This document shows, one piece after another, positions 9,876 through 45,302 of a DNA stretch of 59,151 bases. The position numbers and the translations under genes were made by a program. The notes under the pieces are model-generated. The model did not search any database. It was not told the origin of the DNA and was given only the letters and a program-made list of their open reading frames with translations. Numbering within the stretch: the first letter of the stretch is position 1; each line of letters opens with the position of its first letter. The DNA is from Ancylomarina sp. DW003 (GTDB lineage Bacteria; Bacteroidota; Bacteroidia; Bacteroidales; Marinifilaceae): contig NZ_JAKJSD010000023.1 in the NCBI RefSeq assembly GCF_029029505.1, positions 1 through 59,151 on the forward strand, written 5' to 3'.

Positions 9876-10036
9876 TTATGGGTATTAGGGATTAAACAAA
9901 ACTCTGGTATTTACACCACGCTATTAAAATAGTTGGTAGGCTAGTGATTTTAGATGACATAAGCCTTGTGTATATCTGTGAGTTGAATTATTGGTTTAAT
10001 AAATAATTCTTCAAAATTGGGAACTGAAGAACATGT

Positions 10037-10669
10037 CTATCTTACGATAGAGTCGACAACTCTTTCAACTTTATAAATACCTTGAATACTATCTCCCTTT
10101 ACAATAAAATGCCCACCTTCACTATTGTCGGAGTGCAACTTTAAAATACCTTTCAAAAGCAAATCATTTTCTTTAATACGTTTAACGGATACACGGTTAT
10201 CGTAGACAACCACATATACTCCTGAGTTTATATAAATCCAATCTCCTTGATCTACCTTCTTTAAAAGAACCTTTGCCCCTGATTGCAGAGTTGGTTCCAT
10301 CGAATCACCATCAATTTCAATAACCTGTACTCTATTATAATCAACACCTTCTCGTTTATACATAGAAATTTGTTCGGGGAATTCTGTAGTGTCTGAGTAT
10401 GAATCTGCGAAAGTTGCTCTTGCTTGAATAGGAATATATGGGAGCATTATTGTATTTTCATCGCATTCCGTAAACCCTTTTGTTTCAAAAAAGACTCCAA
10501 TAGAAACATTTAGTAAGGATGCAATCTTCTCTAAAGTTTCTATTTTAGTAGAATTTGTTCTGATTGCTTTCTGCAAACCTTGTTCAGTTACGCCTAGCTG
10601 TTCAGCTAAATTTCGCAATGTTATTCCTCTCTCTGTCAGCAAGTCTCTGATAATATGCAAATTGGCCAT
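10037..10669 (-). CDS. XRE/S24-type phage repressor-like regulator
   Basis: This 210-aa regulator has an N-terminal helix-turn-helix at about residues 5-60 (ITLRNLAEQLGVTEQGLQKAI) and a C-terminal S24/LexA-like domain at about 75-205. The S24 serine is visible in GDSMEPT (S123), and the lysine in SVKRI (K163) completes the Ser-Lys dyad. I see no Ala-Gly or Cys-Gly linker dipeptide at residues 60-100 where CI and LexA self-cleave, so derepression may not use classical autoproteolysis. It is transcribed away from the rest of the island, with operator-like repeats just upstream. It is the best candidate master regulator of tail production and lysis, possibly in response to DNA damage (inference). 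Confidence 0.88.
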   Translation of the reverse strand: MANLHIIRDLLTERGITLRNLAEQLGVTEQGLQKAIRTNSTKIETLEKIASLLNVSIGVFFETKGFTECDENTIMLPYIPIQARATFADSYSDTTEFPEQISMYKREGVDYNRVQVIEIDGDSMEPTLQSGAKVLLKKVDQGDWIYINSGVYVVVYDNRVSVKRIKENDLLLKGILKLHSDNSEGGHFIVKGDSIQGIYKVERVVDSIVR

Positions 10670-11447
10670 TGTTGTAAGTTTTTATGTTATTATATGAACT
10701 ATTTGTATGGTTTATGTAAACTTTTAGTTTATATTTGTACTGTTGGATTACAAAAATAGTTAATTAATACTAAATTAATATACGATGAGAAAGGAAAAGA
10801 AAAACTTGACAGTTAAGATAATATCCCAATAATAACTACAATGAGACATAAGATGGAAACAAAAAGTTTCATGCAAAACTATCTAAGTATATAAATCATT
10901 CCTTTGCCTGTGGTACGCTACTATTCGTAATAAGAAAATGAAAACTTATTAATTACTCATAATAAAATAAGGACTTCCTTTTCTTCCACAAAAATAGATA
11001 GGTAAAATTTTTTATAAACCTCCACATTAGTTTTTTTCTTACTAATTCAAATTAATAATTAAGTTTTTTTTGGAACTCTTGAATTCGGCAATTGGATCTA
11101 GTATGTCACTGTGTTATTAGACTTAACGAATTTACAAGAATAATATATTGAATGAGTAGAAAGATATAAATATTATAAACAAAAAAAAAACTATGTCTTC
11201 TCCTTGTGCTTTGCTAATTATGAAATAATTAAATTTTGATTAGGGTGTAATTTGATTGAAGAAACGAATGCTTTTAGATGTCAATAGGAGGATTTATATG
11301 GTTTATTGGGTATATGTTGAAGTTGGTAGAATTCACTTGTGGATAATTTAAACTGAGCTCATATAGTAGGGAATAAATAAAAAAAGATTCTTAAAAAAAA
11401 GCTCACAGATACTGAGTATACGTGTTGCTATGATGAAAAAAAACTAA
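10670..11447. other. Long AT-rich regulatory region of the island
   Basis: This 778-base gap between the divergent repressor and the first small plus-strand gene has no convincing ORF. Its left end holds the operator cluster and a promoter-like TATATTTG (see 10710-10737). The remainder is very AT-rich with homopolymeric A/T runs. A 17-codon frame at 11298-11351 with a good upstream AGGAGG is noted but not called. Confidence 0.5.
10710..10737 (+). promoter_or_regulatory. Operator-like repeat cluster overlapping a TATATTTG promoter
   Basis: Three alternating half-sites, GTTTA (10710-10714), TAAAC (10717-10721) and GTTTA (10727-10731), form two overlapping inverted repeats, GTTTA-TG-TAAAC and TAAAC-N5-GTTTA. 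They run directly into a Bacteroidetes -7 element TATATTTG at 10730-10737 that reads toward the small island genes. The S24 repressor gene starts 41 bp to the left. This is the expected layout for a repressor that blocks the divergent early promoter. Confidence 0.6.
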
Positions 11448-11711
11448 ATGATAGATATTAAAGAGCGTTTGAGCCAATTATTAGAGCTCGACTATGAAGA
11501 AATTAAAGCGGATGGCCGTAAGAGCTGGCAGCAACTTAATCCTGAAGTTATAATTGATGAAGAAACATGGCAAGAAATATGGCATGAGATTGAACAAATA
11601 TTTAAGGCATATATAGAAAAAGAAAAGCCCGGTGATGATGAGTTCATTATATCTTTTTGCCAAACCATAGATTATTGGAAACCTTTTGAAAGTCCAGTAT
11701 ATATTAATTAG
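11448..11711 (+). CDS. Small acidic protein of unknown function
   Basis: I do not recognise this 87-aa protein. It is acidic and mostly helical in appearance, with many Glu/Trp residues (EETWQEIWHEIEQIF near residue 38), and has no signal peptide or membrane segment. It is the first plus-strand gene past the operator region of the repressor, so it is probably part of the early, repressor-controlled set. An antirepressor or regulatory partner role would fit its position, but nothing in the sequence proves it. Confidence 0.6.
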   Translation: MIDIKERLSQLLELDYEEIKADGRKSWQQLNPEVIIDEETWQEIWHEIEQIFKAYIEKEKPGDDEFIISFCQTIDYWKPFESPVYIN

Positions 11712-11850: not shown

Positions 11851-12138
11851 ATGATTATAGATTTCAAATTACAAACTGAAGTATCGGAAAATGAGGTGAA
11901 ACGTTTTTTTAGAGAACGGGGAATTATTGTAAAACAAGTAGAAACAGTCACTAACTTGTGTCATTGCTGCGACGAGTATTATGAGGCTGAATTAGTACCC
12001 ATTTGGGTTGTTGTGAATCCTCATAACAGACAGGAAACACCCATGATAGAAAAATATCAGGAATTAATAACAGCTCAAGCCAAAAAAAGTATCATTGATA
12101 ATATCGATAAATTCTCTGTCTTCGCTAGCTTTCATTAA
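11851..12138 (+). CDS. Small protein with CHCC motif, unknown function
   Basis: This 95-aa protein is not recognised. It contains a tight cysteine/histidine cluster (NLCHCCDEYYEAE at about residues 36-48) that could bind a metal, and a helical C-terminal half. There is no signal peptide. It lies 139 bp after the 87-aa gene in the same direction, inside the presumed early regulatory module of the tail island. Confidence 0.6.
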   Translation: MIIDFKLQTEVSENEVKRFFRERGIIVKQVETVTNLCHCCDEYYEAELVPIWVVVNPHNRQETPMIEKYQELITAQAKKSIIDNIDKFSVFASFH

Positions 12139-12318: not shown

Positions 12319-12543
12319 GTGGCATATAATCGCAAAAATTTTCTCGAAAAAGTAATATACGTTCAGGAGTATTACTCTGCTCAAAATAAAAAGGGGATTC
12401 CCAATACCCGTATTGTTCAAAATTTAAAAGAGCTAAATATTTATATTAGTCTGGCAACATTTTACAATTATTTGGCGACTCCAGCCAAGCGAGAAATAAA
12501 AGAAATTGAAGAAAGAGAAAGGTTAAAAAAACAGCATGGATAA
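12319..12543 (+). CDS. Small helix-turn-helix-like protein, Bacteroidetes phage type
   Basis: The 74-aa protein starts at GTG (MAYNRKNFLEKVIYVQEYY). Its core, GIPNTRIVQNLKELNIYISLATFYNYL, reads as a DNA-binding helix-turn-helix, and the tail is a charged helix (KREIKEIEERERLKKQHG). Similar short proteins, as far as I recall, accompany Mu-like phages of Bacteroidetes. It is the last gene before a strong terminator at 12616. A regulatory DNA-binding role is inferred, not shown. Confidence 0.65.
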   Translation: MAYNRKNFLEKVIYVQEYYSAQNKKGIPNTRIVQNLKELNIYISLATFYNYLATPAKREIKEIEERERLKKQHG

Positions 12544-12615
12544 GTATTTAAATAGTCCATTTGATTTTAACATGGAAATATTAAGATCGTAAGTCCTCAT
12601 ATTCTAAATTAATGC

Positions 12616-12816: not shown

Positions 12817-13662
12817 ATGAAATTTTTAAAATATTTGTGCATAGGCCTTGGAGCAATACTGGCCTTATTTATTGTATCCTCAATTGTAATTGTTGTTTTA
12901 GGAGAAAATGAAATAGAAAAAGAGATTGAGGAAACAAGAATTGAAAAAGAAAAAAATAGAATTGTAATTACCGAACCTACCAAATCCTTTATGGAGGTGG
13001 AATTAAAATCTCCTGGAAAAGATCCCTACATTGTTGGGAAATGTAATTTTCCGGATAGTACTGAGTTATCAATAATGATATACACAAAAAGATTAATCAA
13101 GGGGGAGAAATATGTTAATGTTTATGGAGGTGAATTCTCTTATTTTTTTAAGAAAGAAATTGTTAATGCTGATAGTATTTCAATCAGATGTGTTAAACTT
13201 AGTGCTTTTCAAAGCCCGAACTTGCTCAAGCAACTAGCACTGGTAGATACAGCAACACATCCCAAAGCTATAGAATATGAATACAGTATGGTCGATCTAA
13301 AAAGAGCTTCCTATCAAAAGTTACTTGAATATGAAGCACCACAAGAGCTGGATATGTCTACAGTGGAAGTGGAGGATTGGACTAAAGAGTATACGTTTCC
13401 TACACATGGAATTTGGAAAAGAAAGAATATCAAAATTAAGGCCGACCCATCAATAGAAAAGGAAGAGATTACAAAGCAAATGAAACATCTGATAGTTGAA
13501 GAATTGGTTAAAGATGCTACTATAGTTGGTATTAGAGCAAATTTGTGTGATAATGAAGGTTACCCAAGATGGAGATTGATTTTCGCTCCCAATGGGGATT
13601 GGGGACAGGAAGAGTTCGAAAGTTATTCAGATTATAAACTGGTTACTGAGAAAATATACTAA
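12817..13662 (+). CDS. Membrane-anchored protein of unknown function
   Basis: This 281-aa protein has one N-terminal transmembrane segment at about residues 6-29 (YLCIGLGAILALFIVSSIVIVVLG), then a charged helix (EIEKEIEETRIEKEKN), and an exported or cytoplasmic domain with no motif I recognise. It stands alone between two terminators (12616 and 13671) inside the island. It may be cargo carried by the island, such as an immunity or envelope-modifying protein, but this is conjecture from position only. Confidence 0.6.
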   Translation: MKFLKYLCIGLGAILALFIVSSIVIVVLGENEIEKEIEETRIEKEKNRIVITEPTKSFMEVELKSPGKDPYIVGKCNFPDSTELSIMIYTKRLIKGEKYVNVYGGEFSYFFKKEIVNADSISIRCVKLSAFQSPNLLKQLALVDTATHPKAIEYEYSMVDLKRASYQKLLEYEAPQELDMSTVEVEDWTKEYTFPTHGIWKRKNIKIKADPSIEKEEITKQMKHLIVEELVKDATIVGIRANLCDNEGYPRWRLIFAPNGDWGQEEFESYSDYKLVTEKIY

Positions 13663-13670
13663 TTGAACAA

Positions 13671-13729: not shown

Positions 13730-14209
13730 TTACTTCAGTGCTATACTTAAACTTTCAATACGACTTTCAGTAAATTTGCCTTCTAATACAGTTTTCTCAA
13801 TTCTACAAGTAAAATCTATTGTTTGGTGATTAACAGTATTTGATGATTTACTTTCTTCACCAACGAGCTGTAATTTACCAGTACTTTCACTTTCAAGTCC
13901 TATTAACAAGTGTTTAAGTAGGTTGTAAGTGTCAAACACTTTTAATGCCTCGAGCTGATTATTTGAAGTACTAGCCGTACTCTCTCCTTTTGCTAATAGA
14001 ACATGTAGTTTTAGATTCAGAACCTGTTTTTCCCAATCTATTTTGTATTCTGTAAAAAGAGCTGGCAGTGTGTATTGTTTGTAAGCTTCTGGTAGTAATT
14101 CTTCACCATTAAACAGATCGATATGTTTTATCAAGGGCAAATTACAACTGGTAAACTGATCGTCTGATGCTTTTATTTTTTCGTTTATTTTTAAATATAG
14201 ATTTTTCAT
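13730..14209 (-). CDS. Probable tail terminator/completion protein
   Basis: The protein is 159 aa. It shows an N-terminal helix, then LIKHIDLFNGEELLPEAYKQYTLPALFTEY followed by alternating beta strands (LNLKLHVLLAKGE, IDFTCRI) around a central helix (LEALKVFDTYNLLKHLLIGLES). This order, including a PALFTEY-type strand, resembles the small tail-terminator proteins of Bacteroidetes Mu-like phages, an assignment made by pattern only. It follows the tape-measure gene on the same strand after 108 bp and is probably cotranscribed with it. In a tailocin such a protein would cap the sheath and tube at the end where a phage would carry its head. Confidence 0.45.
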   Translation of the reverse strand: MKNLYLKINEKIKASDDQFTSCNLPLIKHIDLFNGEELLPEAYKQYTLPALFTEYKIDWEKQVLNLKLHVLLAKGESTASTSNNQLEALKVFDTYNLLKHLLIGLESESTGKLQLVGEESKSSNTVNHQTIDFTCRIEKTVLEGKFTESRIESLSIALK

Positions 14210-14317: not shown

Positions 14318-16576
14318 TTATTGTGCTGTTTCTACTCGACGAAGCATACGTGTGAACATCTCGTTAAAACGATCTTCTATTTCGCTTAAACTTAGCCCTT
14401 CACCTTCTCCATTGAGCATGTTAATGCCTCCTTTTACAAAACTATCGACATGTATACTTACACTTTTAGCAGCTGCAGAAGCAGTTCCCATTCCAGTGAA
14501 ACTTGTGGGAACAGTTTCATTTTCAGTACTCGCAGTTGAGGATTGAGACACAGCTGGTATCCCTTTCTTTTGTTCTTCTTTTTTCTCCTCTTGCTTCTCT
14601 TCTTCTTTGGGTTGTTTATAGGCTTTTAATTTCTCCTGATCAATCTGCTTACCTGCCTTCAGTAGATCAAGCTTTTCAATCTTTGCCATATCCCGACTAC
14701 CATCAGCTTTCAATAGCCCCTTACTCTCTAGTAAACTATTCAAACTACCATCTTTATAAGCATCAATTAGATTAACACGATTTTTTGAATTTTTACTGTA
14801 TTCGGTTTTAGTAGTTTCTACTGCGGTAGCTCCAGCTTTAACGCCCGCAACTAGAGGGTTCATGTCAATCAGGCCTTTACCTGTACGCTTTATGCCATCC
14901 ATGACACCACTAGCACCTTTTTTCACTCCATCCCAATCAAGACTAAAAGCTGAGCCAATAATATTTCCAATGCCTTTTACGGTATCAATGATACCACCTA
15001 TCATATTCTTAACTCCTGACCAAATATTACTAAAGAACCCTTTTATACCTGACCAGGCTCCCTTGAAAACTGCTACAAAACCATCTTTTATATAAGTGCC
15101 AAAAGCCTTCATCGTTGCCCATAAACCATCAACAACTGCTCTAAAGGTTTCAGATTTCTTGTAGGCATACACCAATAAACCCACTATCAAACCTATGGCT
15201 ATCGCAAATGGGTTGGCTTTCATAATTAAATTTAATGCTCCCATGGCCATCTGCATTCCTCCAATAGCAATTTGAGAGAATACGAATTGAGCATTTAAAG
15301 CTACCCAAGCAAGTGCCCATGCTCCTACTGCCCATGTTGCTATTGTTATGAAATCTTTGACAAGCCCAATGTTATTATATACCCAAAGTAAACCATTATT
15401 GATACTTTCTAAAGCATCAGAAACAATTGGGAGTGTACCTTTCCCCAGAGTACTCATTAGGGTATTAAATCGGGTGCCTACCATTTCCTTAAGCACATTA
15501 TAAGAGCCCATGGCTCTAGCAAAGGCTTCGTCCATATCAAATTTGGAAGCATCAAAATTATTTATGGTCTCATCAAATTGTTTTGATTCACCATTCAACT
15601 TGATAAAAAGATCACTTAAGCCCCCTGAACCGCCTATTTGGGCAATTGTTTCCTTAATAGATGCTGGGGACATGTTTTTAAAGTGTGTATTGACATCTTG
15701 AATAATGGACGAATAATCTCGTGCTTTTTTGTTACCATCCACATAACTAATATTCAGACTCTCAATCCATTTTTTGACCTTGGAATCTTTCAGCCCTAGA
15801 AATGCAGTTTTGGTCATTTCGCTGGCCTTGGCCGTATCTTTGGTAACTGTATTAAAGGCGGTAAACATCTTATTGGCTGTATTTACAGATTGACCCGATT
15901 TTGCTGTTGCATCTGCAAATTTCATTTGTTCTTTGGCAAGTTCGCTATAACTGAGTTTGTTCATTTGTGCAGTTGTATAACTACTTTTCATATAGGCCTC
16001 AGAACCCTTACTTTCCAATTTGAAAGCCCTTACTGCTTTGCTGCCTAACTCTATGTCGGCAGTTAAATCGGTGCCCATGGCACGGCTAAATCTGGCTATG
16101 GGATCAACAATAGTTTTCATATCTTGACCCAAATCTTCTGTGTTTTTTTGTGCAGTAAGATAAGCATCAGTAGTTTTACCAAGATCTGTACCTATAGTCA
16201 TAGCAGTATCGTGAATACTTTTTTCGTATTCCAGCATGCTTTTTTTAGGTTTGTCAGCATTCAAATTTTCAATCTGCAGAAATTTGCTTTGAAAATCAGC
16301 AGCTGCTGAGACCGAAATTATTAAAGCGTCCTTTATTAAACCTAATCCTTTAACAATTGTTGCATAAGGAATTTTAATCTTGCCCCAAGCTTTATTAAAG
16401 CTAGGGATCTTTTCTTTCATGCTAGTAAAGCTGCTTACAAAACGATTTTTTAAGGTCGAAAGATCTTCTTTCATCTCCTTCACTCTGGTGTTAATGGTTT
16501 CACGAGCCTTCGTGATTCCTGTTGTTGCGCGGTCTTTAAACTCCAGCAAGAGTTCAATTTTTGTTTGTCCACTCAT
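14318..16576 (-). CDS. Tail tape measure protein
   Basis: At 752 aa this has the layout of a TP901-type tape measure. There is a helical, charged N-terminus (residues 1-110), a long helical central part, and a hydrophobic segment at about 405-470 (FITIATWAVGAWALAWVAL... IAIGLIVGLLVYAYK). A Gly/Trp-rich stretch follows near 495-560 (GAWSGIKGFFSNIWSGVKNMIGG), then a Lys/Glu-rich region near 655-690. Such proteins set tail length and pass through the tube. If the usual 0.15 nm per residue holds, the tail would be of the order of 110 nm. It is unusual in being on the strand opposite to the other tail genes and more than 3 kb upstream of its chaperone. Confidence 0.9.
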   Translation of the reverse strand: MSGQTKIELLLEFKDRATTGITKARETINTRVKEMKEDLSTLKNRFVSSFTSMKEKIPSFNKAWGKIKIPYATIVKGLGLIKDALIISVSAAADFQSKFLQIENLNADKPKKSMLEYEKSIHDTAMTIGTDLGKTTDAYLTAQKNTEDLGQDMKTIVDPIARFSRAMGTDLTADIELGSKAVRAFKLESKGSEAYMKSSYTTAQMNKLSYSELAKEQMKFADATAKSGQSVNTANKMFTAFNTVTKDTAKASEMTKTAFLGLKDSKVKKWIESLNISYVDGNKKARDYSSIIQDVNTHFKNMSPASIKETIAQIGGSGGLSDLFIKLNGESKQFDETINNFDASKFDMDEAFARAMGSYNVLKEMVGTRFNTLMSTLGKGTLPIVSDALESINNGLLWVYNNIGLVKDFITIATWAVGAWALAWVALNAQFVFSQIAIGGMQMAMGALNLIMKANPFAIAIGLIVGLLVYAYKKSETFRAVVDGLWATMKAFGTYIKDGFVAVFKGAWSGIKGFFSNIWSGVKNMIGGIIDTVKGIGNIIGSAFSLDWDGVKKGASGVMDGIKRTGKGLIDMNPLVAGVKAGATAVETTKTEYSKNSKNRVNLIDAYKDGSLNSLLESKGLLKADGSRDMAKIEKLDLLKAGKQIDQEKLKAYKQPKEEEKQEEKKEEQKKGIPAVSQSSTASTENETVPTSFTGMGTASAAAKSVSIHVDSFVKGGINMLNGEGEGLSLSEIEDRFNEMFTRMLRRVETAQ

Positions 16577-16870
16577 ATTTTAATTATTATATATATAAAT
16601 ACCCCTGCTAAGTGCAAAAGGGCTTGCATTTTCATTCCTTGTATTTTTCTACCTAAGTATGATTAATAGTTCTGTTCACATTCTTCATATGCATTGAACA
16701 GCTCTTTATTTAAAAGTCAAGCTTTACTCAATCCAGCCTTTGTTTTTGTACAATCTCCAGATCTATTTAGCATATTCTACATGGATTGAGCGTAAAATTG
16801 TAAAAAATGAATAAAACAAAACGATAAGACTCTAAGGCTTTTTCACTTGACAGTAAGGCTTGTTTTGTTC

Positions 16871-16902
16871 TTGTGAAAGTCAAAAATCTGTTTCTATCAT
16901 TG
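16871..16902 (+). promoter_or_regulatory. Promoter-like boxes in repeat copy 1
   Basis: TTG (16871-16873), a 21-base spacer and TATCATTG (16895-16902) fit the Bacteroidetes -33/-7 pattern with one mismatch in the -7 box. The same pair recurs in the other two repeat copies. Confidence 0.45.
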
Positions 16903-17083
16903 CAGTGTAATCAACGAATAGAGATGAGAAATTTTGATTTGTAAGTTTCGTTTTCAGCAAATTGATTCTTGAATGTCAAAACAAATATTCTTTTGGTATT
17001 GTGAGTGAAATTGTAAAAAATGAATGAAAGAAGAGGGCGAGACTCTAAGGCTTTTTCACTTGGCAATAAGGCTTGTTTTGTTC

Positions 17084-17115
17084 TTGTGAAAGTCGAAAAA
17101 CTGTCTCTATCATTG
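17084..17115 (+). promoter_or_regulatory. Promoter-like boxes in repeat copy 2
   Basis: TTG (17084-17086), a 21-base spacer and TATCATTG (17108-17115) are identical in layout to the boxes of copy 1. Confidence 0.45.
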
Positions 17116-17295
17116 CATTGTAATCAACGAATAAAGGTGTGGAGTTTTGATTTATAAATTCTGTTTTAAACCAATCGATTCTTAAACTCCGAGACAAATA
17201 TTCTTTTTGTACAGAGAGTGAAGTTGAAAAAATGATTAAAACAAAACGACAAGACTCCAAGGCTTTTTTACTTAACTGCAAGGTTTGTTTTGTTC

Positions 17296-17327
17296 TTGTG
17301 AAAGTCAAAAAACTGTCTCTATCATTG
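17296..17327 (+). promoter_or_regulatory. Promoter-like boxes in repeat copy 3, nearest the tail operon
   Basis: TTG (17296-17298), a 21-base spacer and TATCATTG (17320-17327) lie 136 bp before the first plus-strand gene of the tail operon. This is the best candidate for the main late promoter. Confidence 0.5.
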
Positions 17328-17462
17328 CATTGTGATAGACAAATAGGGGTGATATATTTTGATAAATATTTGCAATTGAACCTATAACACTTGATAAGTA
17401 TAAAAATAACTATTCTGTCGATTACACTAATCAAAATAATATGTAATAGAACTGAAATCGGA

Positions 17463-17693
17463 ATGAGTAATAACGAAACTATAGATATGAATCAGCTAAC
17501 ACAAAAGGAGCTGTTGATACTTGTGAATTCTAAGGTGATTAATATGAATAACACCCTAATCAAGTTAACAGGAGATTATACCAATTTACTGGTACGTGTT
17601 AGCAATATAGAGAACAGAGTAAAAACCTGGTCTGCGTTTATTGCCATTCTGTCTTCAGCTCTAACTTCATTTGTGCTGAGCTTCTTAAAATAG
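17463..17693 (+). CDS. XhlA-like coiled-coil membrane protein
   Basis: The start is taken at the ATG giving MSNNETIDMNQ, 76 aa. The longer TTG-initiated frame adds an implausible N-terminus. An N-terminal coiled coil (LTQKELLILVNSKVINMNNTLIKL... VSNIENRVKTW) is followed by one C-terminal membrane helix (AFIAILSSALTSFVLSFL). This architecture is that of XhlA/hemolysin-type phage lysis accessory proteins, which sit at the membrane with a holin. It is the first gene of the plus-strand structural operon, just downstream of the repeat array. Confidence 0.65.
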   Translation: MSNNETIDMNQLTQKELLILVNSKVINMNNTLIKLTGDYTNLLVRVSNIENRVKTWSAFIAILSSALTSFVLSFLK

Positions 17694-17777
17694 AACATCT
17701 TCGAATTCGAGTCTATATATAGTTGAAACAAAAAAGCTTTTTTATTAAATTAATTATTTAACAAAATTTTAAAGAAA

Positions 17778-19022
17778 ATGTCGGGAGTAGAAATTACAAA
17801 AGGACAATTGGGGGCAAATACAATTGCCAGTTCAGACAAAACAGCAGGCTTTGTTGTTTCTGTTGAGAGCGCACCTTCAGAAATGATACTAGGGAATGTT
17901 TATAAGTTCTATAACATTAAGGATGTTGAAGAGAAGGGGATTACTAAAGATTATGAATCGAGTATTATTCATCATCAAATTTCGGAGTTTTATCGCATGG
18001 CTGGCGAAGGAGCAGTGTTGTTTCTTATGTTGGTTCCAAGATCTGTTTCGATGGTTAATATGCTTGACCTAGAATCAGACTATGCTAAAAAAATGATTAA
18101 CGAAGCTGATGGTGAAATTAGAAAATTAGCATTGGGACTTACTGTTGCTTCAGAGGATACGCCATTAGTTACATCTGGTATTAATGACGATGTGTTTGCT
18201 GCTATTCCAAAGGCTCAGGCTTTTGCTGATTGGTGTTACGAAAATCATCGTCCACTTAATATCTTTTTGGAAGGACGTGATTATGCAGGTGATGCAACTG
18301 CAGTACCAGATTTGAAGAAAATTCCTGATACAAAAGCACCTAAGGTGAGTGTGGTTATTGGTCAGGATTACAAGTTGGCTTCGGATAGTGGCTTACCATC
18401 AAATTATGGAAATTATGCTGCAGTAGGTAATGTGTTAGGCTGTTCTGTAAAAGGAAAGATCAATCAGAATCTGGGAGAGAATGAAAGCATGAATATTACT
18501 GATGCAGGTAAGGATGCTTTTCTTATTGGAGGTTTATCTTCAATTACACCAATTACAGATGTAGAATCTGATTGGGAAATTCTTGATACTAAAGGCTATA
18601 TTTTCCCGATTCGTGAAGTTGGATTAGCAGGCTTGCGTTGGAATAACGATCACACTTGTGTAGAACAAATTTTAGATGCAGAAGGCAATATTAACGAGCA
18701 CACTGTAGCTTACGGTGCTACTATTGATAAGGCATCCCGCTTATTGCGAACTGCACTTTTGCCAAAAGTGAAAACGGTTCAGCCTGTTGATCCAAAAACA
18801 GGAAAATTACCTGTTGGTGTCGTTAAGTATTTCGAAGGATTAGGTGATACTGTTTTTGAAAAAATGAAGGCTGATGGCGAAATCTCAGAAGGAAAAACAA
18901 CAATTGATCCAAATTCTAATTTATTAACTGGCGATAAAGCACTTATCGCATCTTTCGAGCTGGTTCCTTACGGAACTATTGGGAAAATTAAAGGTTCTAT
19001 TAATCTTAAAAACAATTTATAA
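17778..19022 (+). CDS. Contractile tail sheath protein (DUF2586-like)
   Basis: This 414-aa protein begins MSGVEITKGQLGANTIASSDK and resembles the DUF2586 sheath proteins of Mu-like phages of Bacteroidetes. Sheath subunits have variable outer domains and a C-terminal domain that docks on the tube and the next subunit. Here the C-terminus ends in a beta-rich segment (LIASFELVPYGTIGKIKGSINL), as expected. Position is strong support: it is followed with a 1-bp overlap (TAATG) by the tube gene, the standard sheath-tube order. It forms the outer contractile layer of the tail. Confidence 0.85.
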   Translation: MSGVEITKGQLGANTIASSDKTAGFVVSVESAPSEMILGNVYKFYNIKDVEEKGITKDYESSIIHHQISEFYRMAGEGAVLFLMLVPRSVSMVNMLDLESDYAKKMINEADGEIRKLALGLTVASEDTPLVTSGINDDVFAAIPKAQAFADWCYENHRPLNIFLEGRDYAGDATAVPDLKKIPDTKAPKVSVVIGQDYKLASDSGLPSNYGNYAAVGNVLGCSVKGKINQNLGENESMNITDAGKDAFLIGGLSSITPITDVESDWEILDTKGYIFPIREVGLAGLRWNNDHTCVEQILDAEGNINEHTVAYGATIDKASRLLRTALLPKVKTVQPVDPKTGKLPVGVVKYFEGLGDTVFEKMKADGEISEGKTTIDPNSNLLTGDKALIASFELVPYGTIGKIKGSINLKNNL

Positions 19023-19996: not shown

Positions 19997-20190
19997 AGCT
20001 CTTTCCCAGAATTGACAACCGGGAGGAGTGCGATTTTTTTAGAAAAGGAAATGCTTTAATCAGCCTATACCTGCACATAGAGTTTCCAGAAGATTTAAAC
20101 GATGAATTATGGTTCGAAAAATATATGCAGGTACACTGGCTGTTTGAGCAAGGTATGTTAAACGTAAAACCAGAAGATAAAAATGGGTAA
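19990..20190 (+). CDS. Tail assembly chaperone, frameshifted C-terminal extension (gpGT-type)
   Basis: After a -1 shift at 19984-19990 translation continues LLELFPRIDNREECDFF... for 66 residues, ending QGMLNVKPEDKNG with TAA at 20188-20190. The fused protein would be 186 aa (120 from the zero frame plus 66). The extension has no good start codon of its own near its beginning, and its stop overlaps the ATG of the next gene (20183). All of this argues for frameshift expression. In lambda-like tails the T part recruits the major tail tube protein to the tape measure, and the same role is inferred here. Confidence 0.82.
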   Translation, partial: LLELFPRIDNREECDFFRKGNALISLYLHIEFPEDLNDELWFEKYMQVHWLFEQGMLNVKPEDKNG

Positions 20191-23566: not shown

Positions 23567-23576
23567 TTTTAAACAG

Positions 23577-33608: not shown

Positions 33609-36634
<3,026 letters not shown>

Positions 36635-36638
<4 letters not shown>

Positions 36639-37213
36639 TAAGAACGATTATACTTGGTACAGGTAGATGTGGTACACTAACCATATCAAACATGTTGAAT
36701 AACAACGGTGTATACTGTGCTCATGAATTTAGCAACCCTAGATTAACTTTTGATTTAGATGAACATCACTACAAAATACATTATCATTATTTAGCTACAG
36801 TTTACCAAGCGGAATCTTCTTTGCTTGGTATTAACTATGTGGATAGGCTTAAGGAGGATAATCCGGATCTTAAAGTCATTGTACTTCAGCGTGACAAGCA
36901 AGAGACGATTAACAGCTTTATAAATGTGCTGGGTATAAAATGCAGGACTACAAATGAAGATGATATCTTAAGATTTGTACGAGAAGGTAAGTACATAGTT
37001 ACTTTTGACAAGACTGCTGCTACTTTACGAGAATCTATAGGTAATTACTATGATTGGTATTATACTAAGTGTGATACTATTCAAGGTGCATTACACATCA
37101 ATTTACAAGATTTGAATTGTACTACTACACACGATAAGATCTATGATTTCATTGGCTTGCCGTGTGACGGTAGAAGTTACGACTTGATTCATAGTCACAG
37201 GTTTATAGCGTAA
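36635..37213 (+). CDS. Sulfotransferase-like (PAPS-binding) protein
   Basis: The 192-aa protein begins MIRTIILGTGRCGTLTISNML. The GTGRCGT loop (residues 8-14) matches the 5'-phosphosulfate binding loop of PAPS-dependent sulfotransferases. VIVLQRDKQETINSFIN (about 80-96) matches the 3'-phosphate motif, with an arginine near 86 and a serine near 93. It is shorter than most cytosolic sulfotransferases but similar to compact bacterial forms. It overlaps the fibre 2 stop by 4 bp, so the two are probably translationally coupled. Sulfation of fibre 2 or of a sugar on it is an inference. A different P-loop enzyme remains possible. Confidence 0.65.
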
Positions 37214-37617: not shown

Positions 37618-38366
37618 ATGTCAAAACAATCAAAAAATACAATAAAAAGCTGGTTTAAGAACGGCACTTTTCCCAACCAATTTCATTTTTGGGACTGGAT
37701 GGATAGTTTCTTTCATAAAGATGAACAGATACCCTCAGGTCAAATAGAAAATTTACAGAATTTACTGGATTCTAAGGTAGACAAAAAAGATTTGCCAGAT
37801 GGAGATGTTGCAATCACTGATGTTTCAGGGCTAAACGATGCTTTGGATATTAAGGTAGACAAGGAAGATGGGAAAGGCTTGTCAACAGAAGATTTTACCC
37901 CGGTATTAAAGGCTAAACTTGATGCAGTAGAAAAAGATGCCAATAATTACCAGCACCCATTGACTCACTCAGCTAGCATGATTGAGGAAACGGCTGATAA
38001 AGCTTTCACCTCAGATGCTGAAAAGCAAGCTAATGCCAATCATATTGACAATGTAGATATTCACAAAACATCGGAGGAAATCCGATCTGAAATAGTAGAT
38101 GTGGATATTCCTGTGACTATTGCGCGACAAGACGATGTAGCAGCAAGTGCCGATGGTGTGTTATCGACTATTCGTGGCGGTGTAAGTGAAACGTACGATA
38201 CCTTGAAAAAGGTTTACGATTGGATTTTTGTGCATGATGGAAATACAGATATTCATAAAACATCAGAGCAAATCCGTTCCGAAATTGTCGATGAGGATAT
38301 TCCTGTTAGCCTGGCGAGGGTGAGTCAACTGACGACAGAGAATATTGTTGGTTCGGTATGCGAAAC
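37333..38366 (+). repeat. Direct repeat copy B (leader plus fibre 3 N-terminus)
   Basis: This is the second copy of the 1,034-bp block at 33324-34357, in the same orientation and 4,009 bp away. Recombination between the copies would remove fibre 2's specific region and the sulfotransferase-like gene, and join fibre 2's leader to fibre 3's body. Confidence 0.92.
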
Positions 38367-39990
38367 CTTAGAAGAAGCACAAGACAAGGCTTATGATGGG
38401 TATACTTGTTACGTAAAGACTGATCAGAAATCCTACGTCTTTAAACTAGAAGAGGAAATTGTTTTAGATGAAGAAAATAATGAGGTCGTTAATCAAAAAT
38501 TTATTCCTCACGAAATAGATACTGCTAATCAGGATTGTGTTGCATCACTTGGAGGCTTATATGATTGGAATGCAGAGGTTAATGGTGGATCAGCAATGAA
38601 TACTTTTGGGACAGTTGATGCTTCTTTAATGAAGGGTAAGATAACAAGAATAGCAATTAATAGTTATTCTCAAATGAATTTCACAAATGCAACTGCTGGT
38701 GATACTGGAACCATAGTCGTAACAAGCACATCATCATTTTCACAATTCTTATATTTCACTTTAGAAACAGATCACAATGCAGTACATGTGAATACTGGTG
38801 TTGAGGTTTCAAAGACAACTGGTAGTAAAAGAGTGTATATTCCAGCATATGGTTTAGTGACAATTGAATGGATTTATGATGGAAGTAAATTACGTATAAT
38901 ATCTAGAGGTCTTGATTCCAGTGGATATATCGGGGATTCAGAAATAATAGAGCATAATATTTCAGGAGTTAAGACCCTGGACCTTAGGAATGGTTTATCT
39001 TATTATTTAATGTGTAAGCACTCTAGTAATGTTGCAGAATTTAACCCTTTTTATTATTCCGATAATGTTATATATACTCTTAGAGTAATAAATCAAAGTC
39101 CAGATAATTCTAAAATGAAGATCATTTTAAACAAAGCGACATTCTCTGGTGGAGAAGATCATTTTTATCTTGATTATGGATCTAGAGCAGCGATTCAATT
39201 CTTTATGGGTGGAGGTAGTGCATGGATTACTGGATTTTCAAATACTTCGGCTGTGGAACCAGGAGGTGCTCTTTCAGCAAGTTCAACATATTTACCTCCT
39301 GAAATATCGCTCACTACTGACACTCCATTAATATCTAAAACTCCTCAGACTGTAACATTGAGCATAAATGCATGGGGTAACTTAAAGACATTATCTAAAG
39401 TTGAGGTACTTGATCCTGATTCTGGAGCAATTTATACAAATGAATCTATTACGAATAATCATTTAACTGCAACAGCATCTGTCACTGGACTAGAAGCTTT
39501 TGATGGAGCAAGAACATATACGCTTAAAGTTACATATAGTGATGATAGTTTTGAAACCAAAACTCTTGATTTAGAATCGGTAAATAATTTTTATGCTGGA
39601 GGTCTTGTTGTTAGTTCATCTACATTTTGGACTTATCCAAATTACCATGGCGTTACATATTTAGTTCCATTAGCGACTAAAGAATACTCATTCACATCTA
39701 CTTATCTTGATGTATGGGGAAATGCATCTATGCAAATATGTATGCCAGCGACTAGAGAAATAGATTATATAATCATGGATGGAGTAAGGACTAAACATAC
39801 TGTGAATGACGTAACGTCTACTAGTACTACTTATCCTGGAATGATGTGGAATAAACTTGATCGTAATCTTGAGAATGAAGACAATCCGGGAGTGACTGTG
39901 AACTATAAACTTTATGATACACACGGAGCAGGGTTCTACATAGGCAGAAATCAGCATGCATCTGTTGATATAACAATAAAATTTAAATAA
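37618..39990 (+). CDS. Giant tail fibre 3 (proximal part of a split fibre)
   Basis: This is a 790-aa fibre. Residues 1 to about 300 are the shared attachment module. A shaft similar in style to fibre 1 follows (GGLYDWNAEVNGGS...). An Ig-like domain lies at about 560-655 (PPEISLTTDTPLISKTPQTVTLSINAW... RTYTLKVTYSDDSFETKTLDL), and a C-terminal beta sandwich ends ASVDITIKFK. No S74 domain is present. Its stop overlaps the start of the next gene (TAATG), and that gene lacks the attachment module. The two may therefore form one long fibre as proximal and distal halves (inference). Confidence 0.87.
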   Translation: MSKQSKNTIKSWFKNGTFPNQFHFWDWMDSFFHKDEQIPSGQIENLQNLLDSKVDKKDLPDGDVAITDVSGLNDALDIKVDKEDGKGLSTEDFTPVLKAKLDAVEKDANNYQHPLTHSASMIEETADKAFTSDAEKQANANHIDNVDIHKTSEEIRSEIVDVDIPVTIARQDDVAASADGVLSTIRGGVSETYDTLKKVYDWIFVHDGNTDIHKTSEQIRSEIVDEDIPVSLARVSQLTTENIVGSVCETLEEAQDKAYDGYTCYVKTDQKSYVFKLEEEIVLDEENNEVVNQKFIPHEIDTANQDCVASLGGLYDWNAEVNGGSAMNTFGTVDASLMKGKITRIAINSYSQMNFTNATAGDTGTIVVTSTSSFSQFLYFTLETDHNAVHVNTGVEVSKTTGSKRVYIPAYGLVTIEWIYDGSKLRIISRGLDSSGYIGDSEIIEHNISGVKTLDLRNGLSYYLMCKHSSNVAEFNPFYYSDNVIYTLRVINQSPDNSKMKIILNKATFSGGEDHFYLDYGSRAAIQFFMGGGSAWITGFSNTSAVEPGGALSASSTYLPPEISLTTDTPLISKTPQTVTLSINAWGNLKTLSKVEVLDPDSGAIYTNESITNNHLTATASVTGLEAFDGARTYTLKVTYSDDSFETKTLDLESVNNFYAGGLVVSSSTFWTYPNYHGVTYLVPLATKEYSFTSTYLDVWGNASMQICMPATREIDYIIMDGVRTKHTVNDVTSTSTTYPGMMWNKLDRNLENEDNPGVTVNYKLYDTHGAGFYIGRNQHASVDITIKFK

Positions 39991-42900
39991 TGAGTTTAAA
40001 ACATACGCAAATGGGTTATACGGATATTCCGGTAATCCCAGACGGAGCTACACCAGTTGACCCAAGATTGATTGTGTCGTCAAAAAGCGACTTAACAACA
40101 CTTTATAATGATTCGCCATTCAAGGCTTATCCAGGCATGGAGGTTATGCTTGTAGATTACAATGGAAAAGTAAAGTATAGATTCATAGGAGACTCCTATA
40201 CAGACTCAATTGATTTAGCTAATTGGGAGAAGGTAGATTTAGACACTGCGTTTACTACAGAAGATGGAGGAAAGACCAAGTATCCATTGTTTTACGAAGG
40301 AGATGATACAAGAGACAATTCGTTAGTTACGCATGGGCAATTAAGAGGTGATGTTAAGTATGACTATACATCATATTATGATGTTAAAGTGGAATTTGAT
40401 GATCCTGATTTTGTTGTAGACGGGTATAATGCTAATAAGTATTTAGCAGCATTTTACTCCAATACTGGAGGTAAGATCTATGTTCATAATTTAGTTACTA
40501 ATAAGAAATATAAATACACAAAGTCATTAGGAAGTTCTGATGTTAGGATTGCAATATGCAATGATTCAATAATGATGTGCAGATACAATGCATCTAAATA
40601 TACTGACTTTCCATATATCACAAATGGAGGAGCTACATATGGTGAATATTCAGTATCTAGTACTGTTGGATATTTAAGAGATCTATATTCTACTAATAAT
40701 GGATTCTATCAATTAGGGGTTGATGGCTGGATGTTTGTATCTGAAGGTAGAAAAATTTCAGCAGCAGTAAGTCTAAAGAATGAAACATATGATAAGTATG
40801 TTTCAGCGGGAGCTTATTTGATGGGTATAAATACTATAGACAGAACATACAAGTTGTGGAGAGCAAATGTAAGAACTTCTGGTCAAGTTCAACTAATAAG
40901 AACGTCATCATTAAATTCAGCATCATTAGTTGCAAATATAGATGACTTTGTGATTCATGGAACTGAAGAGTCATTTGCTATGATATGGCTTAGGGATACA
41001 TATAAAACTGATAATAAGTTTTATTATTTGACTTTTTATAACTGGAGAAAAGATAATTCAGATGTATGGGTTAAAAGTGGATCTACTAATTCTTATGGTT
41101 ATTTTGCTGGATTCGATACGAAGCCAAGTTATAAAGTTCATTACATGACTGATAGTTCAATATATCTAATGGATGAAAATACTGGTTGGATCTGGAATAC
41201 GAGTATAACTAGTCCAAGATTCTCAAATATGTCCGATATAACTACTGCAATTAGTCACTCTGGATGGGATAGGACGAGGAATCATTATAATGTTCAGATG
41301 ATGAGACATAGGCTTCATGATTCTAAGTTTGGATTCCTGAATATGGAAGGCGGGCCAACAAGCACTGACTTTACAGGATTTAAATTCCCAACAAATGAAA
41401 CAGTATTGGGAACTAGAATAATTGACTCTAATGAATGGGATGGTGGAATTGAAGCTATTTATGGTGACGATCAAGTCCAATTAGTAAGAGGAAAACAAGG
41501 TGCAAATCTAGTATTAAAATTATATAGGTGGAATAATACAGAAGAGGTTATACATAGTGAAGTGTATAATACTGACTTGAAAGTAATGTTTCCCGGATAT
41601 TCAACTATAGTATGGTACAACAGTACTGGAGCATCGTATAGAGATACTAGCCCCAATAGTTCAGTAACAACAATTAGCGTTGCTAATATGGTTGATTTGC
41701 AATTCGGTGGTAGAGGTATAGAGCATGCGATTGCATATAAACAAGGGAATAGTGTTTACTTATCATTAGATAAAGGGATTACATTTAATTGCATTTATAC
41801 ATCAGCATCAACATTATACAAATTTACGCTTGGCGAGGCTGGAAATATGATGTTTCTGAGAGAGTCATCAATAACTGCTGGTAAAATGACCGTTGAGTAT
41901 TATAAGCCACAAACATCAGCATTGATAACAAAGGAGACTATGCTATCAACTGAATATGGCGGTGGAGCACTTGACTATTCAAATTCTATTACATTCAGGC
42001 CATCATTCGCTCAAGTATCAACATTCTACACTGTTATTGATGCGATGGGAAGATTGCAAGTATATTACACTCATCCAAATTCAGTCAACATTAGAGGCAT
42101 GAATAGTGTTAGTAATTTGAATGTAATATATAGAAAGGGAGAAAACTTTAAGGTTTTTAATGCTGGAGATATGACAGCATTGAATAGAGATGATTATGGA
42201 AATAGCCTTACATCAACCACGTTGCCAAGTAAATTTAGAACAGATATTACTGGTTTTGCTGACGGTCAATTTGTCATTGTTAATGACAATGGATTCCACA
42301 CAGTGAGAACAATTGATGAATATGGTAATGATAATGGATATTTAAGAAAAATAGTAGATGTACCAGTAATTAAAACAACGTTAACTCCAAGAATCGATAC
42401 AGATGCTAATACATCATATATTATTGATAACTCAGGAGATATAGTTTTGACTTATAGTGGGACTACAATAGGATCAACATCTTATGTAAGAATTAATACT
42501 CCAAGAACAATAACGATGAATGGAACTATTATTTCTGGAACTGTAAATAATAATGGGATCAATATAATACAAACAACATGTGTAAATGACTTGGGAGATG
42601 ATACGAGTTACGAACATGTAATTATAAGCCCAGCTTCAGGCGGTAGCGGAGGTGGAGCCTTTGATACAATTGTACCATTGGCAAGCAATTCTGCACAGAA
42701 AACATTAAGGAATACGGAATCTGATTTATCAACTGACAGTATCGGTATTGGCCACAATGCATTATTAAATAATGATGGTTATGCTTCTATTGCTTTTGGA
42801 GAAAGAGCTGGAGAAGGTAATAAAGGATTCGGTGGATTATTTACTGGATTTTATGCTGGACTAAATAATACTGGATGTGGAGTAATTGGTATTGGATCTG

Positions 42901-44711
42901 AAGCATCAGCTTATGGATCTGGAAATGCCAGCGTTGCAGTAGGTGATGGATCTGGCGTATGTAATACTGGAACATGCGTAGTGTCAATCGGTAAGCGAGC
43001 TGGATACCATAATACTGGAAACGATTCTGTATTTATAGGAGAATGTGCTGGAGCTGACAATATATGCAATAGAAATACATTCCTTGGTTCATGCGCTGGA
43101 AAAACTTTTACAAACTGCGGAGCAACTGCAGTAGGATACTGTGCTGCTAACGGCGGAGGAGGTCAACTTAGTGTTGCTCTTGGTATTTGTGCAGGATTAG
43201 GTAATACATGTTCTAGAAATATCATGGTGGGTGCAAATTCTGGTATTGGCCAGACTGGATATGGCTCAATTATGATCGGGTATTATGCTGGAAATTGTGC
43301 TACCAATTCTACACACACTGTTAATATAGGAGAAAAAGCTGGATGCTCATCAACATCTAGTTCATCAGCAGTTAATATCGGGACTAATGCTGGTGCATTT
43401 GCAAAAAATAGTAGTGGAGCAGTAAACATAGGAAGTGGGGCTGGATGTTGTGCTGGATGTGCACATGTGGGTGTAAATATAGGACAATCTGCGGGAAAGG
43501 ATTCAACAGGTACAAGAGGAAGTGTAAATATAGGGTGGGAAGCTGGATGCAGCTCAGGAGAATCAGGAGGATATGCTACCGTATTTATTGGACAAAAAGC
43601 AGGGTGTTGTAGTGTAAGCAATGGTACGATTGCAATTGGTTCTAATGCTGGAGTGTTATCAGAATGCGGATCACATGTTATAATTGGAGGTGGGGCTGGA
43701 CAAAAAATGCGTGGTGGATATGGCAATATAGCACTTGGGTCTGCTTCAGGAACGTATCTACAAGGCTGTTACAATTTTGGTGCAGGAGGAAATACTTTAA
43801 ATAAAGCTATTGGTAGTAATAATTTTGTTGGTGGATTCTGTGCTGGACATTATTTAGAGGCCGATAATGTTATAGCTATTGGTGATCATGCTGGTCGTAA
43901 GGCAACATCAAATGGTTCAATACTTTTCAATTCAACATCAAGAGTTGCAAATAAAGTAATTTTACCTAAACCGGGAGTTGCTGGAGCAGGATTGAGTTTT
44001 ACTGTTGGTGATCATGGATTATTGGCAGGAACAAGCTCGGCGAAAGTTATAGGTGCTGGATTCGGTTTGATAAACTCTCAAAATGTTACAGTTACCGTAG
44101 TTGATGACAATACATTTACTATCGCAGAAAATTTAACAACAACTGGTGAAGCCGGAGATGTTAAGCTCCAAATTGGAACGCCATTGAGTAATGTTGCAAT
44201 TATTAATCCTAAGGCATACGAAACTATTGATGATGTGAACATACCTGTACCAACAGCAAGTAATCAAATGCATTATGGTAACAAGGAGATGTCTAAACAT
44301 ATATTTTATGGTGATGTAGAGTGTACTGGCGAATTTGTGGGAGCAGGAGGAGGATCTACTCCTTCATTACAAGATGTAACTGATGCGGGAAATTCAACTA
44401 CCAATAATATTGTTACGACAGGAACAGCAACGGCATCAAACTTTATCTTATCTTCTGATGAACGATTAAAAACCTTTAAGAATGAACCTATTGTAGATGT
44501 AAGTTCTATAGACATTAGAAAGTTTAGTTATAATGATGATGAAACGAATCGTGATCGTTATGGTGTATCTGCTCAGGAATTACAAAAAGTAGCACCTGAG
44601 ATGGTTTATGAAGATGATGAAGGTATGTTAAGTGTTGGTTATACTGATTTCTTACTTGCTAGAATCGCTAAACTTGAAAAATTAGTTTATAAATTAATGG
44701 AGGATAAATAA
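39990..44711 (+). CDS. Giant fibre 4 (distal part), Cys-rich beta-roll and S74 domain
   Basis: The 1573-aa protein lacks the shared N-terminal attachment module and begins with a different domain (HTQMGYTDIPVIPDGATPVDPRL, to about residue 90). A large region (100-880) of repeated aromatic beta modules, propeller-like in appearance, follows. From about 915 to 1320 there are IGxxAG-type YadA-head repeats with about twenty cysteines, many as AGC or AGCC. The C-terminus (from about 1488) is an S74 chaperone domain: SSDERLKTFKNEPI... DRYGVSAQELQKVAPEMV plus a coiled coil. It is coupled to fibre 3 upstream and the tip protein downstream by TAATG overlaps. Confidence 0.88.
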   Translation: MSLKHTQMGYTDIPVIPDGATPVDPRLIVSSKSDLTTLYNDSPFKAYPGMEVMLVDYNGKVKYRFIGDSYTDSIDLANWEKVDLDTAFTTEDGGKTKYPLFYEGDDTRDNSLVTHGQLRGDVKYDYTSYYDVKVEFDDPDFVVDGYNANKYLAAFYSNTGGKIYVHNLVTNKKYKYTKSLGSSDVRIAICNDSIMMCRYNASKYTDFPYITNGGATYGEYSVSSTVGYLRDLYSTNNGFYQLGVDGWMFVSEGRKISAAVSLKNETYDKYVSAGAYLMGINTIDRTYKLWRANVRTSGQVQLIRTSSLNSASLVANIDDFVIHGTEESFAMIWLRDTYKTDNKFYYLTFYNWRKDNSDVWVKSGSTNSYGYFAGFDTKPSYKVHYMTDSSIYLMDENTGWIWNTSITSPRFSNMSDITTAISHSGWDRTRNHYNVQMMRHRLHDSKFGFLNMEGGPTSTDFTGFKFPTNETVLGTRIIDSNEWDGGIEAIYGDDQVQLVRGKQGANLVLKLYRWNNTEEVIHSEVYNTDLKVMFPGYSTIVWYNSTGASYRDTSPNSSVTTISVANMVDLQFGGRGIEHAIAYKQGNSVYLSLDKGITFNCIYTSASTLYKFTLGEAGNMMFLRESSITAGKMTVEYYKPQTSALITKETMLSTEYGGGALDYSNSITFRPSFAQVSTFYTVIDAMGRLQVYYTHPNSVNIRGMNSVSNLNVIYRKGENFKVFNAGDMTALNRDDYGNSLTSTTLPSKFRTDITGFADGQFVIVNDNGFHTVRTIDEYGNDNGYLRKIVDVPVIKTTLTPRIDTDANTSYIIDNSGDIVLTYSGTTIGSTSYVRINTPRTITMNGTIISGTVNNNGINIIQTTCVNDLGDDTSYEHVIISPASGGSGGGAFDTIVPLASNSAQKTLRNTESDLSTDSIGIGHNALLNNDGYASIAFGERAGEGNKGFGGLFTGFYAGLNNTGCGVIGIGSEASAYGSGNASVAVGDGSGVCNTGTCVVSIGKRAGYHNTGNDSVFIGECAGADNICNRNTFLGSCAGKTFTNCGATAVGYCAANGGGGQLSVALGICAGLGNTCSRNIMVGANSGIGQTGYGSIMIGYYAGNCATNSTHTVNIGEKAGCSSTSSSSAVNIGTNAGAFAKNSSGAVNIGSGAGCCAGCAHVGVNIGQSAGKDSTGTRGSVNIGWEAGCSSGESGGYATVFIGQKAGCCSVSNGTIAIGSNAGVLSECGSHVIIGGGAGQKMRGGYGNIALGSASGTYLQGCYNFGAGGNTLNKAIGSNNFVGGFCAGHYLEADNVIAIGDHAGRKATSNGSILFNSTSRVANKVILPKPGVAGAGLSFTVGDHGLLAGTSSAKVIGAGFGLINSQNVTVTVVDDNTFTIAENLTTTGEAGDVKLQIGTPLSNVAIINPKAYETIDDVNIPVPTASNQMHYGNKEMSKHIFYGDVECTGEFVGAGGGSTPSLQDVTDAGNSTTNNIVTTGTATASNFILSSDERLKTFKNEPIVDVSSIDIRKFSYNDDETNRDRYGVSAQELQKVAPEMVYEDDEGMLSVGYTDFLLARIAKLEKLVYKLMEDK

Positions 44712-45259
44712 TGAGCGTACCAAATACGACAACATTTAGTTTAACTGATGTAGTAGCAGAACTTGGAGGGGGAGAAGCCTCTCTCCAAGCTTGTTTTGAT
44801 AATGCAATAAATTCAAGTTTTGATACAACATATAGAGGAAATAAAAATGAGCTACTTAATTTTAGAAATTATAATACTCATACTTTACCAATAGCTGTGC
44901 CAACTGGTGGAGTATCATCTACTCCTATCAGAGATCATAATTGGGTGCTACTACATACACCTTTTACACTTAATACTCCAGCAAGAACATCATTTTTGCT
45001 ATACTATAAATATCATAATCTTAGAGATACTAATTATACGTCAACTCAACCTATGTATGTAGATATAACAGCTGGAATGACAACATTTACTATTAGTGCT
45101 TATGTCAAAGATGTTGGAGGAATAGATGTGCCAGACTATGCATATAGCGGAGAAATACTGTGGTGGAATAGAGATACTCATGGTAATATTCAAACTTACC
45201 CGTCAGATTTTGAGGTAGATTTAACAGCTAGATACGCATTTAATATACCAGCATTATAG
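44711..45259 (+). CDS. Fibre-associated tip protein (paralogue of 31403 at its N-terminus)
   Basis: This 182-aa protein starts MSVPNTTTFSLTDVVAELGG ... ELLNFRNY, the same module as the LRR protein at 31403 (VP..xTFSxxDVxxEL ... LLxFRxY). The C-terminal 120 residues are a beta-sandwich-like domain, not LRRs. It follows an S74 fibre directly in both cases, here with a TAATG overlap. A shared dock with interchangeable ends points to a receptor-binding tip or a dedicated fibre partner. It is the last island gene before the terminator repeat at 45303. Confidence 0.72.
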   Translation: MSVPNTTTFSLTDVVAELGGGEASLQACFDNAINSSFDTTYRGNKNELLNFRNYNTHTLPIAVPTGGVSSTPIRDHNWVLLHTPFTLNTPARTSFLLYYKYHNLRDTNYTSTQPMYVDITAGMTTFTISAYVKDVGGIDVPDYAYSGEILWWNRDTHGNIQTYPSDFEVDLTARYAFNIPAL

Positions 45260-45302
45260 TTAACTTCTTTTTAGCTAACACTTAATAGTGTTGCGTCAGC
45301 AG

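Follow-up and report, generated by a model that had tools for sequence, protein, structure and literature searches.

The tail locus described here is very probably an R-type tailocin that arose when a Winoviridae-like (Mu-type, transposable) prophage was domesticated. It lies in a stretch of 59,151 nucleotides from Ancylomarina sp. DW003 (hereafter the window), and its product would most likely be a phage-tail-shaped particle that kills competing bacteria. Several features of an R-type tailocin are present, with sheath, tube, tape measure, hub, spike, baseplate and fibre genes in open reading frames and lysis genes consisting of a GH108 endolysin and membrane proteins (putative holins); genes for a head, packaging, transposition or integration were not found. 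By gene content the locus would thus be classed as an R-type tailocin, and the Bacteroidota form appears to be new. An earlier sequence-only reading had proposed a tailocin here and had named head or packaging genes, an ATPase of extracellular contractile injection systems (eCIS) and decay of core tail genes in relatives as findings that would speak against it. None of these was found when they were checked in sequence, and the comparison with other genomes adds the phage origin.

Gene Content of the Tail Locus

The tail, lysis and regulator genes named in that reading were recovered using Pfam, PHROGs, the predicted sheath fold and gene order. The contractile sheath (17778-19022, plus strand, as are all genes to its right up to 45259) carries DUF2586 and matches phrog_907 'tail sheath'. 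Sheath family PF04984 had no match anywhere in the genome, and the sheath is therefore of the DUF2586 type. A sheath model predicted from 22 sequences (pLDDT 84.8) had the diffocin R-type sheath (6gkw, E 1.8e-10) as its best structural match and the R-pyocin sheath (3j9q, E 2.7e-8) as its third. The tail tube (19022-19438) scores alike against phrog_9206 'major head protein' (E 2.7e-12) and phrog_4579 'tail protein' (E 5e-12); we read it as the tube because the gene directly follows the sheath in phages too, where it stands beside a separate capsid gene. The S74 domains of the fibres and the collar also match some PHROGs labelled 'head and packaging' or 'DNA ejection', and we read the head-type labels on tube, fibres and collar as shared domains or label noise. 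We also noted that phrog_209 'portal protein' weakly matches the terminator-like proteins described below; phrog_209 and phrog_9206 may be misleading labels for head/tail calls.

Downstream of the tube is a tail assembly chaperone with a -1 frameshift extension (19631-20186), which is kept in all four sequences compared (window, L017, L018, and L019); the slippery motif AAAAAAC was located in the window (at 19984), L017 and L019. It is followed by a DUF6046 baseplate hub protein (20183-20857; Pfam/PHROGs), the baseplate hub (20943-21911; phrog_4930, E 2.6e-56), a spike (21940-22497), a gp25-like baseplate protein (22524-22808), the GH108 endolysin (22805-23410; Pfam/PHROGs), a holin-like protein with membrane segments (23550-24164), a LysM-like tail protein (24161-24463; weak PHROG match), a gpJ-like baseplate protein (24439-25281; phrog_38413, which has no function given), a gpI-like baseplate protein (25244-25747), and the collar fibre (25754-26920; Pfam/PHROGs). 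The names spike, gp25, gpJ and gpI follow gene order and the earlier reading; neither Pfam nor PHROGs gave a function for these four, and their homologues occur in the same order in Flavobacterium phage fF4. NCBIfam returned no usable assignment for the ten island proteins tried.

To the left of the sheath, the tape measure (14318-16576; PF10145; phrog_991, E 2.8e-26) had been correctly predicted to be present but was wrongly placed: it lies on the minus strand upstream of the sheath, and a tail terminator/completion-like gene follows it (13730-14209, minus strand; phrog_6911). We tentatively identify this last family as the terminator from weak family hits, namely its kinship to gp29 of phage Peternella, which is annotated as tail completion, and a sub-threshold PF23840 match of the homologue in L140. 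At the left end is an HTH and S24 repressor (10037-10669, minus strand; Pfam; phrog_4), in which, by eye, Ser and Lys are kept and the canonical Ala-Gly cleavage site is not visible; for this reason we are unsure whether the locus is under SOS control through the repressor. Three small plus-strand genes come next (11448-11711, 11851-12138, and 12319-12543), in the same order as the matching early-region genes of a complete phage in genome G015, to which they are 29, 31, and 52% identical, respectively. The third is also kept in fF4, the headless locus L028 and L031, and as a guess it might be a late regulator.

Probable Origin in a Winoviridae-Like Phage

By its sheath, fF4 is the closest named phage (42%); it is listed as Winoviridae and carries a DDE transposase. 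In fF4 and the G015:C112 prophage, one strand bears the terminator, neck, tape measure, portal/head-morphogenesis and terminase genes, while the other bears the protease, capsid, sheath, tube and baseplate genes. The sheath, tube, chaperone, hub, baseplate, terminator and fibre start are homologous in the window and the Winoviridae-like phages and occur in the same order. Tape measure and sheath are separated by 7.6 kb in fF4, by 8.0 kb in the G015 phage and by 1.2 kb, without any head gene, in the window. This interval (16577-17777), which occupies the position of the phage head module and which we refer to as the head-deletion junction, holds three repeats of ~170 nt and a small gene. The neck gene, found between terminator and tape measure in the phages, is missing as well. 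Relative to these phages, then, the window is without the head module, the PF05069 (gpG/gpS-like) neck adaptor and the transposase MuA, and retains the terminator, tail, repressor and lysis genes. Unlike the window, fF4, Peternella and the G015:C112 prophage have capsid, protease, portal/head-morphogenesis, terminase, neck and MuA genes. The locus has a tail module in Winoviridae order without capsid, protease, portal/head-morphogenesis or neck genes, and appears to derive from the Winoviridae without being a member. Passages on the Winoviridae phage Peternella describe a myoviridal tail by electron microscopy (PMC8776804). This tail is 105.8 nm long, with a tape measure of 669 aa; scaled to the 752 aa of the window's tape measure, the predicted tail would have a length of very roughly 105-120 nm.

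No match to the terminase, portal/head-morphogenesis, capsid, protease, neck or MuA profiles made here was found in the window, where the 'portal' profile represents genes named head morphogenesis in the Peternella record. Likewise, the capsid and large terminase of the G015 phage had no match in the window's genome, in runs in which positive controls worked. The capsid query matched only G015 among six genomes, and the terminase query gave matches in G015, G240 and G128 and none in the window's genome or G198. Neither integrase nor replication genes were seen in the island (Pfam on 28 proteins; head and MuA profiles). These searches bear out the earlier statement that capsid, portal, terminase, integrase and transposase genes are missing.

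Within the head-deletion junction, the three ~170-nt repeats (16790-17363) are 85-86% alike, and the search used found no further copy in the genome; by eye, L017 seems to carry two of them. They are possibly stacked promoters. The small plus-strand gene (17466-17693) encodes a protein with a C-terminal membrane segment that is 95% identical in L017 and 58% in the G015 phage and that looks holin/XhlA-like by eye.

Insertion Site and Distribution in the Genus

The island borders of the earlier reading (9876-45302) are confirmed as the exact interior of two perfect copies of a 31-bp direct repeat (9845-9875 and 45303-45333), for which the chance expectation was 0 in 100 shuffles. The left copy is a terminator-like hairpin past a host gene that we take, by eye, to encode a biotin carrier (9506-9817); the right flank is presumably ispE (45353-46204, minus strand). 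The GC content of the island (0.348) is like that of the flanks (0.345 and 0.353). At 31 bp the repeat exceeds what a Mu-type duplication would leave, since related transposable phages make target duplications of 4 bp according to passages of PMC10367356; a lost integrase or homologous recombination is a possible source.

The comparison with sister genomes that the earlier reading had called for shows the locus in one of five genomes of the genus, as it was absent from all four others searched. In each of these four, the biotin-carrier gene and ispE are adjacent and the hairpin after the biotin-carrier gene is present, with variation. No gene was seen between the two host genes in G001, G003 and G004, and the sole gene at the island site in G002 is a homologue of the tailocin-linked gene 12817-13662 (plus strand), which encodes a protein with an N-terminal membrane segment.

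This membrane gene is an unusual feature of the locus. It has the same place in the window and L017, and was found in three of the 56 genomes of a family search (the window's, G002, and G058). The G002 copy (L024:11255-12070, G002:C2) is a lone open frame, 63-65% identical, at the window's island site. The G058 copy (L083:11578-12869, G058:C2) has two internal stops and stands beside a truncated remnant of the terminator gene, next to what is presumably mutS; the L083 remnant appears to be the decayed left edge of a tailocin locus. The gene had no match in the phage collection, and in IMG/VR the contig of L017 alone matched. Possible roles are self-protection and regulation. A predicted model of the protein (two sequences, pLDDT 56.6) was set aside.

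Conservation of the Headless Form

The nearest relative, L017, is a viral metagenome contig whose sheath, tube and tape measure are 90, 98, and 56% identical to those of the window, respectively. It has the same headless arrangement, and by eye the interval separating tape measure from sheath shows homology between the two. Because the headless junction is common to both, the head was most likely lost before the window and L017 split. When 17 genes were compared between the two, dN/dS was 0.04-0.25 in 14 and 0.44 in the collar, with gpJ and gpI saturated; between the window and L019, it was 0.03-0.28 in 11 of 12 genes, with gpI saturated. Some of the finite dS values exceed 1 (near saturation), and those ratios are rough. 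The common junction with L017 together with dN/dS below 0.5 wherever computable indicates that the headless form is kept under purifying selection, and the earlier expectation that core tail genes have not decayed in relatives holds in L017 and L019, where they are intact.

These data bear directly on the strongest alternative, namely a functionless cryptic prophage that is decaying after loss of its head genes. The patchy occurrence, with absence from all four same-genus genomes searched, and the decayed left-edge remnants in G058 are what such a prophage might leave. However, all core reading frames of the window's tail locus are open, dN/dS has stayed far below 1 since the head deletion, which would be older than the split from L017, and the head genes and neck are gone while the tail genes are whole on both sides of the gap. 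We therefore consider a decaying prophage unlikely and a maintained tailocin the better account of the locus.

Other Headless Loci in the Bacteroidales

A sheath search of 393 Bacteroidales genomes gave matches in 42. There were 48 sheath places, of which 40 were fetched and five were already in the set; G323, G353 and G110 were left out. A scan with profiles made here covered 98 sheath loci, with earlier loci included and duplicates counted. Fifteen had no terminase, portal, capsid or protease: five were called headless (window, L017, L028, L128, and L140), and the ten that were cut or decayed (L018, L019, L044, L047, L063, L067, L095, L127, L142, and L147) were left out of the headless calls. 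The window thus appears to be one of several headless derivatives in the Bacteroidales. If the tailocin reading is confirmed, the Bacteroidota have their own phage-tail weapons, with more than one origin on the sheath tree.

The locus in G015 (L028:10273 to L029:5596, G015:C8) is a headless tail locus of a second kind, ~15 kb in size and flanked by an ABC-transporter gene on one side and a ribH-like gene on the other; it has an S24 repressor, an amidase and a plus-strand tape measure and no head genes, and no recognisable terminator was seen in L028. A scan of viral contigs with its sheath yielded ten candidates, none of which was confirmed. The locus running from L128:8564 to L167:4156 (G240:C71) is headless with host genes on both sides, and three small, similar genes stand in tandem behind its fibre; L127 (G137) has the same sheath. 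L140:6937-18008 (G198:C87) is headless with its right end cut by the contig. The L128 and L140 loci belong to other Bacteroidales families. Two further candidates were not counted as headless. In L047 the sheath is truncated and adjoins host genes; this locus was taken as a decayed prophage and is not in the tree. L142 (G424:C19) is cut, and its sister L134 has a terminator between capsid and sheath; we set L142 to unknown, as we did L127, which is cut by a contig end.

The sheath tree has 90 rows (76 with a head gene, seven first labelled headless, and seven unknown) and omits the duplicates or near-duplicates L020, L033, L037, L041 and L048 as well as ORFs shorter than 280 aa. The headless state changed four times on it at first and three times after L127 and L142 had been recoded as unknown; the latter figure is provisional, coming from a quick single-gene tree. 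A single headless clade was rejected (AU p 4e-66, eight rows, L018, L019 and L127 included).

The neck gene is present in 37 of the 45 loci with the terminator in view. The eight terminator loci without it are the window, L017, L127, L128, L140, L057, L130 and L142; in L057 the head is present and the neck was not detected, and L130 and L142 are cut by contig ends. The neck protein of the G015 phage matches PF05069 Phage_tail_S (E 5.9e-12). In the tailocin BceTMilo, according to passages of its description, S alone among the tail genes is absent when compared with P2 and KL3, and S is described as an adaptor docking the tail with the capsid (PMC5411513). Since the neck is gone in the window and S in BceTMilo, a gpS-class adaptor is missing from unrelated tailocins that keep the terminator. 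This combination, with the head block and the gpS-type adaptor lost and the terminator retained, may offer a testable criterion by which genome data could separate tailocins from dead prophages.

The missing adaptor also weighs against a second alternative, in which the locus would be a phage satellite, or a tail donor, supplying tails for heads that a helper phage makes. G015 and G240, which have other headless loci, also hold complete related phages elsewhere in their genomes. In the window's genome, however, no capsid or large terminase of the G015-phage kind was found, the neck adaptor, without which heads could not be joined, is missing, and no integrase or replication gene was seen; we regard a satellite as very improbable and a free-standing tailocin as the better reading.

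Relation to Known Contractile Systems

Known tailocins come mostly from Proteobacteria and some Gram-positives. Among the open-licence PMC matches listed, none reported a Bacteroidota tailocin by its title or the start of its abstract, and the word start 'bacteroid' is absent from the main text of two tailocin/eCIS reviews (PMC12090994, PMC10598620). Like the window, BceTMilo and other R-type tailocins derived from P2 or Mu keep tail, lysis and regulator genes with the head genes deleted, and BceTMilo is likewise without the tail-to-head adaptor; the P. syringae tailocins are described as Mu-derived (PMC12090994). The window differs from these in its Bacteroidota host, DUF2586-type sheath, divergent tape measure, Winoviridae-like source and three paralogous fibres. 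The best structural match of its sheath model, the C. difficile R-type bacteriocin diffocin, has 12% sequence identity and comes from a different host phylum. The source phage of diffocin also differs from that of the window.

The BIS and other eCIS resemble the window as headless contractile systems, and BIS, for which passages of PMC7394362 describe an FtsH-type ATPase together with a DUF4157 gene, is known in the Bacteroidales. An eCIS of the Afp/PVC/BIS type delivering a protein effector nevertheless seems the least likely of the three alternatives: a contractile sheath and a LysM-like gene are in common, but no DUF4157 gene was found among the Pfam matches to 28 island proteins and no AAA+ ATPase among those to the same proteins or to 12319-12543, as the sequence-only reading had held, the closest relatives are complete phages, and phage repressor and endolysin are kept.

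Proposed Mode of Action and Fibre Region

We propose that domestication would have stripped the ancestral prophage of its head module, its transposase and the neck adaptor that presumably docks tail to head. Stress would release the S24 repressor, tails would assemble on the tape measure and be capped by the terminator, and GH108 and the holin would lyse the producer cell. The fibres would then bind surface structures of related bacteria, and sheath contraction would drive the tube through the envelope, killing the target.

The fibre region comprises fibre 1 with an S74 chaperone end (26932-31419; Pfam/PHROGs), a leucine-rich-repeat-like fibre-associated protein (31403-32362; Pfam/PHROGs), fibre 2 (33609-36638), fibre 3 (37618-39990), fibre 4 with an S74 chaperone end (39990-44711; Pfam/PHROGs), and a small fibre-region protein (44711-45259; phrog_21885). 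Fibres 1, 2 and 3 are paralogous at the N-terminus, having their first ~300 residues in common, and fibres 2 and 3 share 97% DNA identity over 1183 nt, a stretch that includes ~285 nt ahead of the start codon. Used as a query, the N-terminal 70 residues of fibre 1 found three matches in the window and a single one in each of 25 further loci, among which several are duplicates and many are cut on the right. Three paralogous fibres thus seem unusual, as the other loci seen have one each. The fibres may be alternatives swapped by homologous recombination.

Taken jointly, it is conceivable, albeit doubtful, that Bacteroidales tailocins arose repeatedly from Winoviridae-type transposable phages with loss of the head block and gpS-type adaptor and retention of the terminator as a sequence signature, and that the window adds to this a multi-fibre arsenal recombining through leaders and N-termini that the fibres share and, in 12817-13662, a membrane self-protection gene kept by a sister genome after loss of the weapon. 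A dedicated membrane self-protection gene outliving its weapon would, if true, be to our knowledge the first for R-type tailocins.

Two genes with enzyme-like products are placed between the fibre genes. One encodes a glycosyltransferase-like protein by eye (32440-33291; phrog_8954, which has no function given), for which the phage collection gave two matches, both from marine viruses (E 1e-26 and 4e-3); the other encodes a sulfotransferase-like protein (36635-37213; just below the Pfam cut-off) and had no match in the phage collection. Fibre 2 also contains a run of Ser-Gly hexanucleotide repeats (35921-36175), which could allow in-frame length variation.
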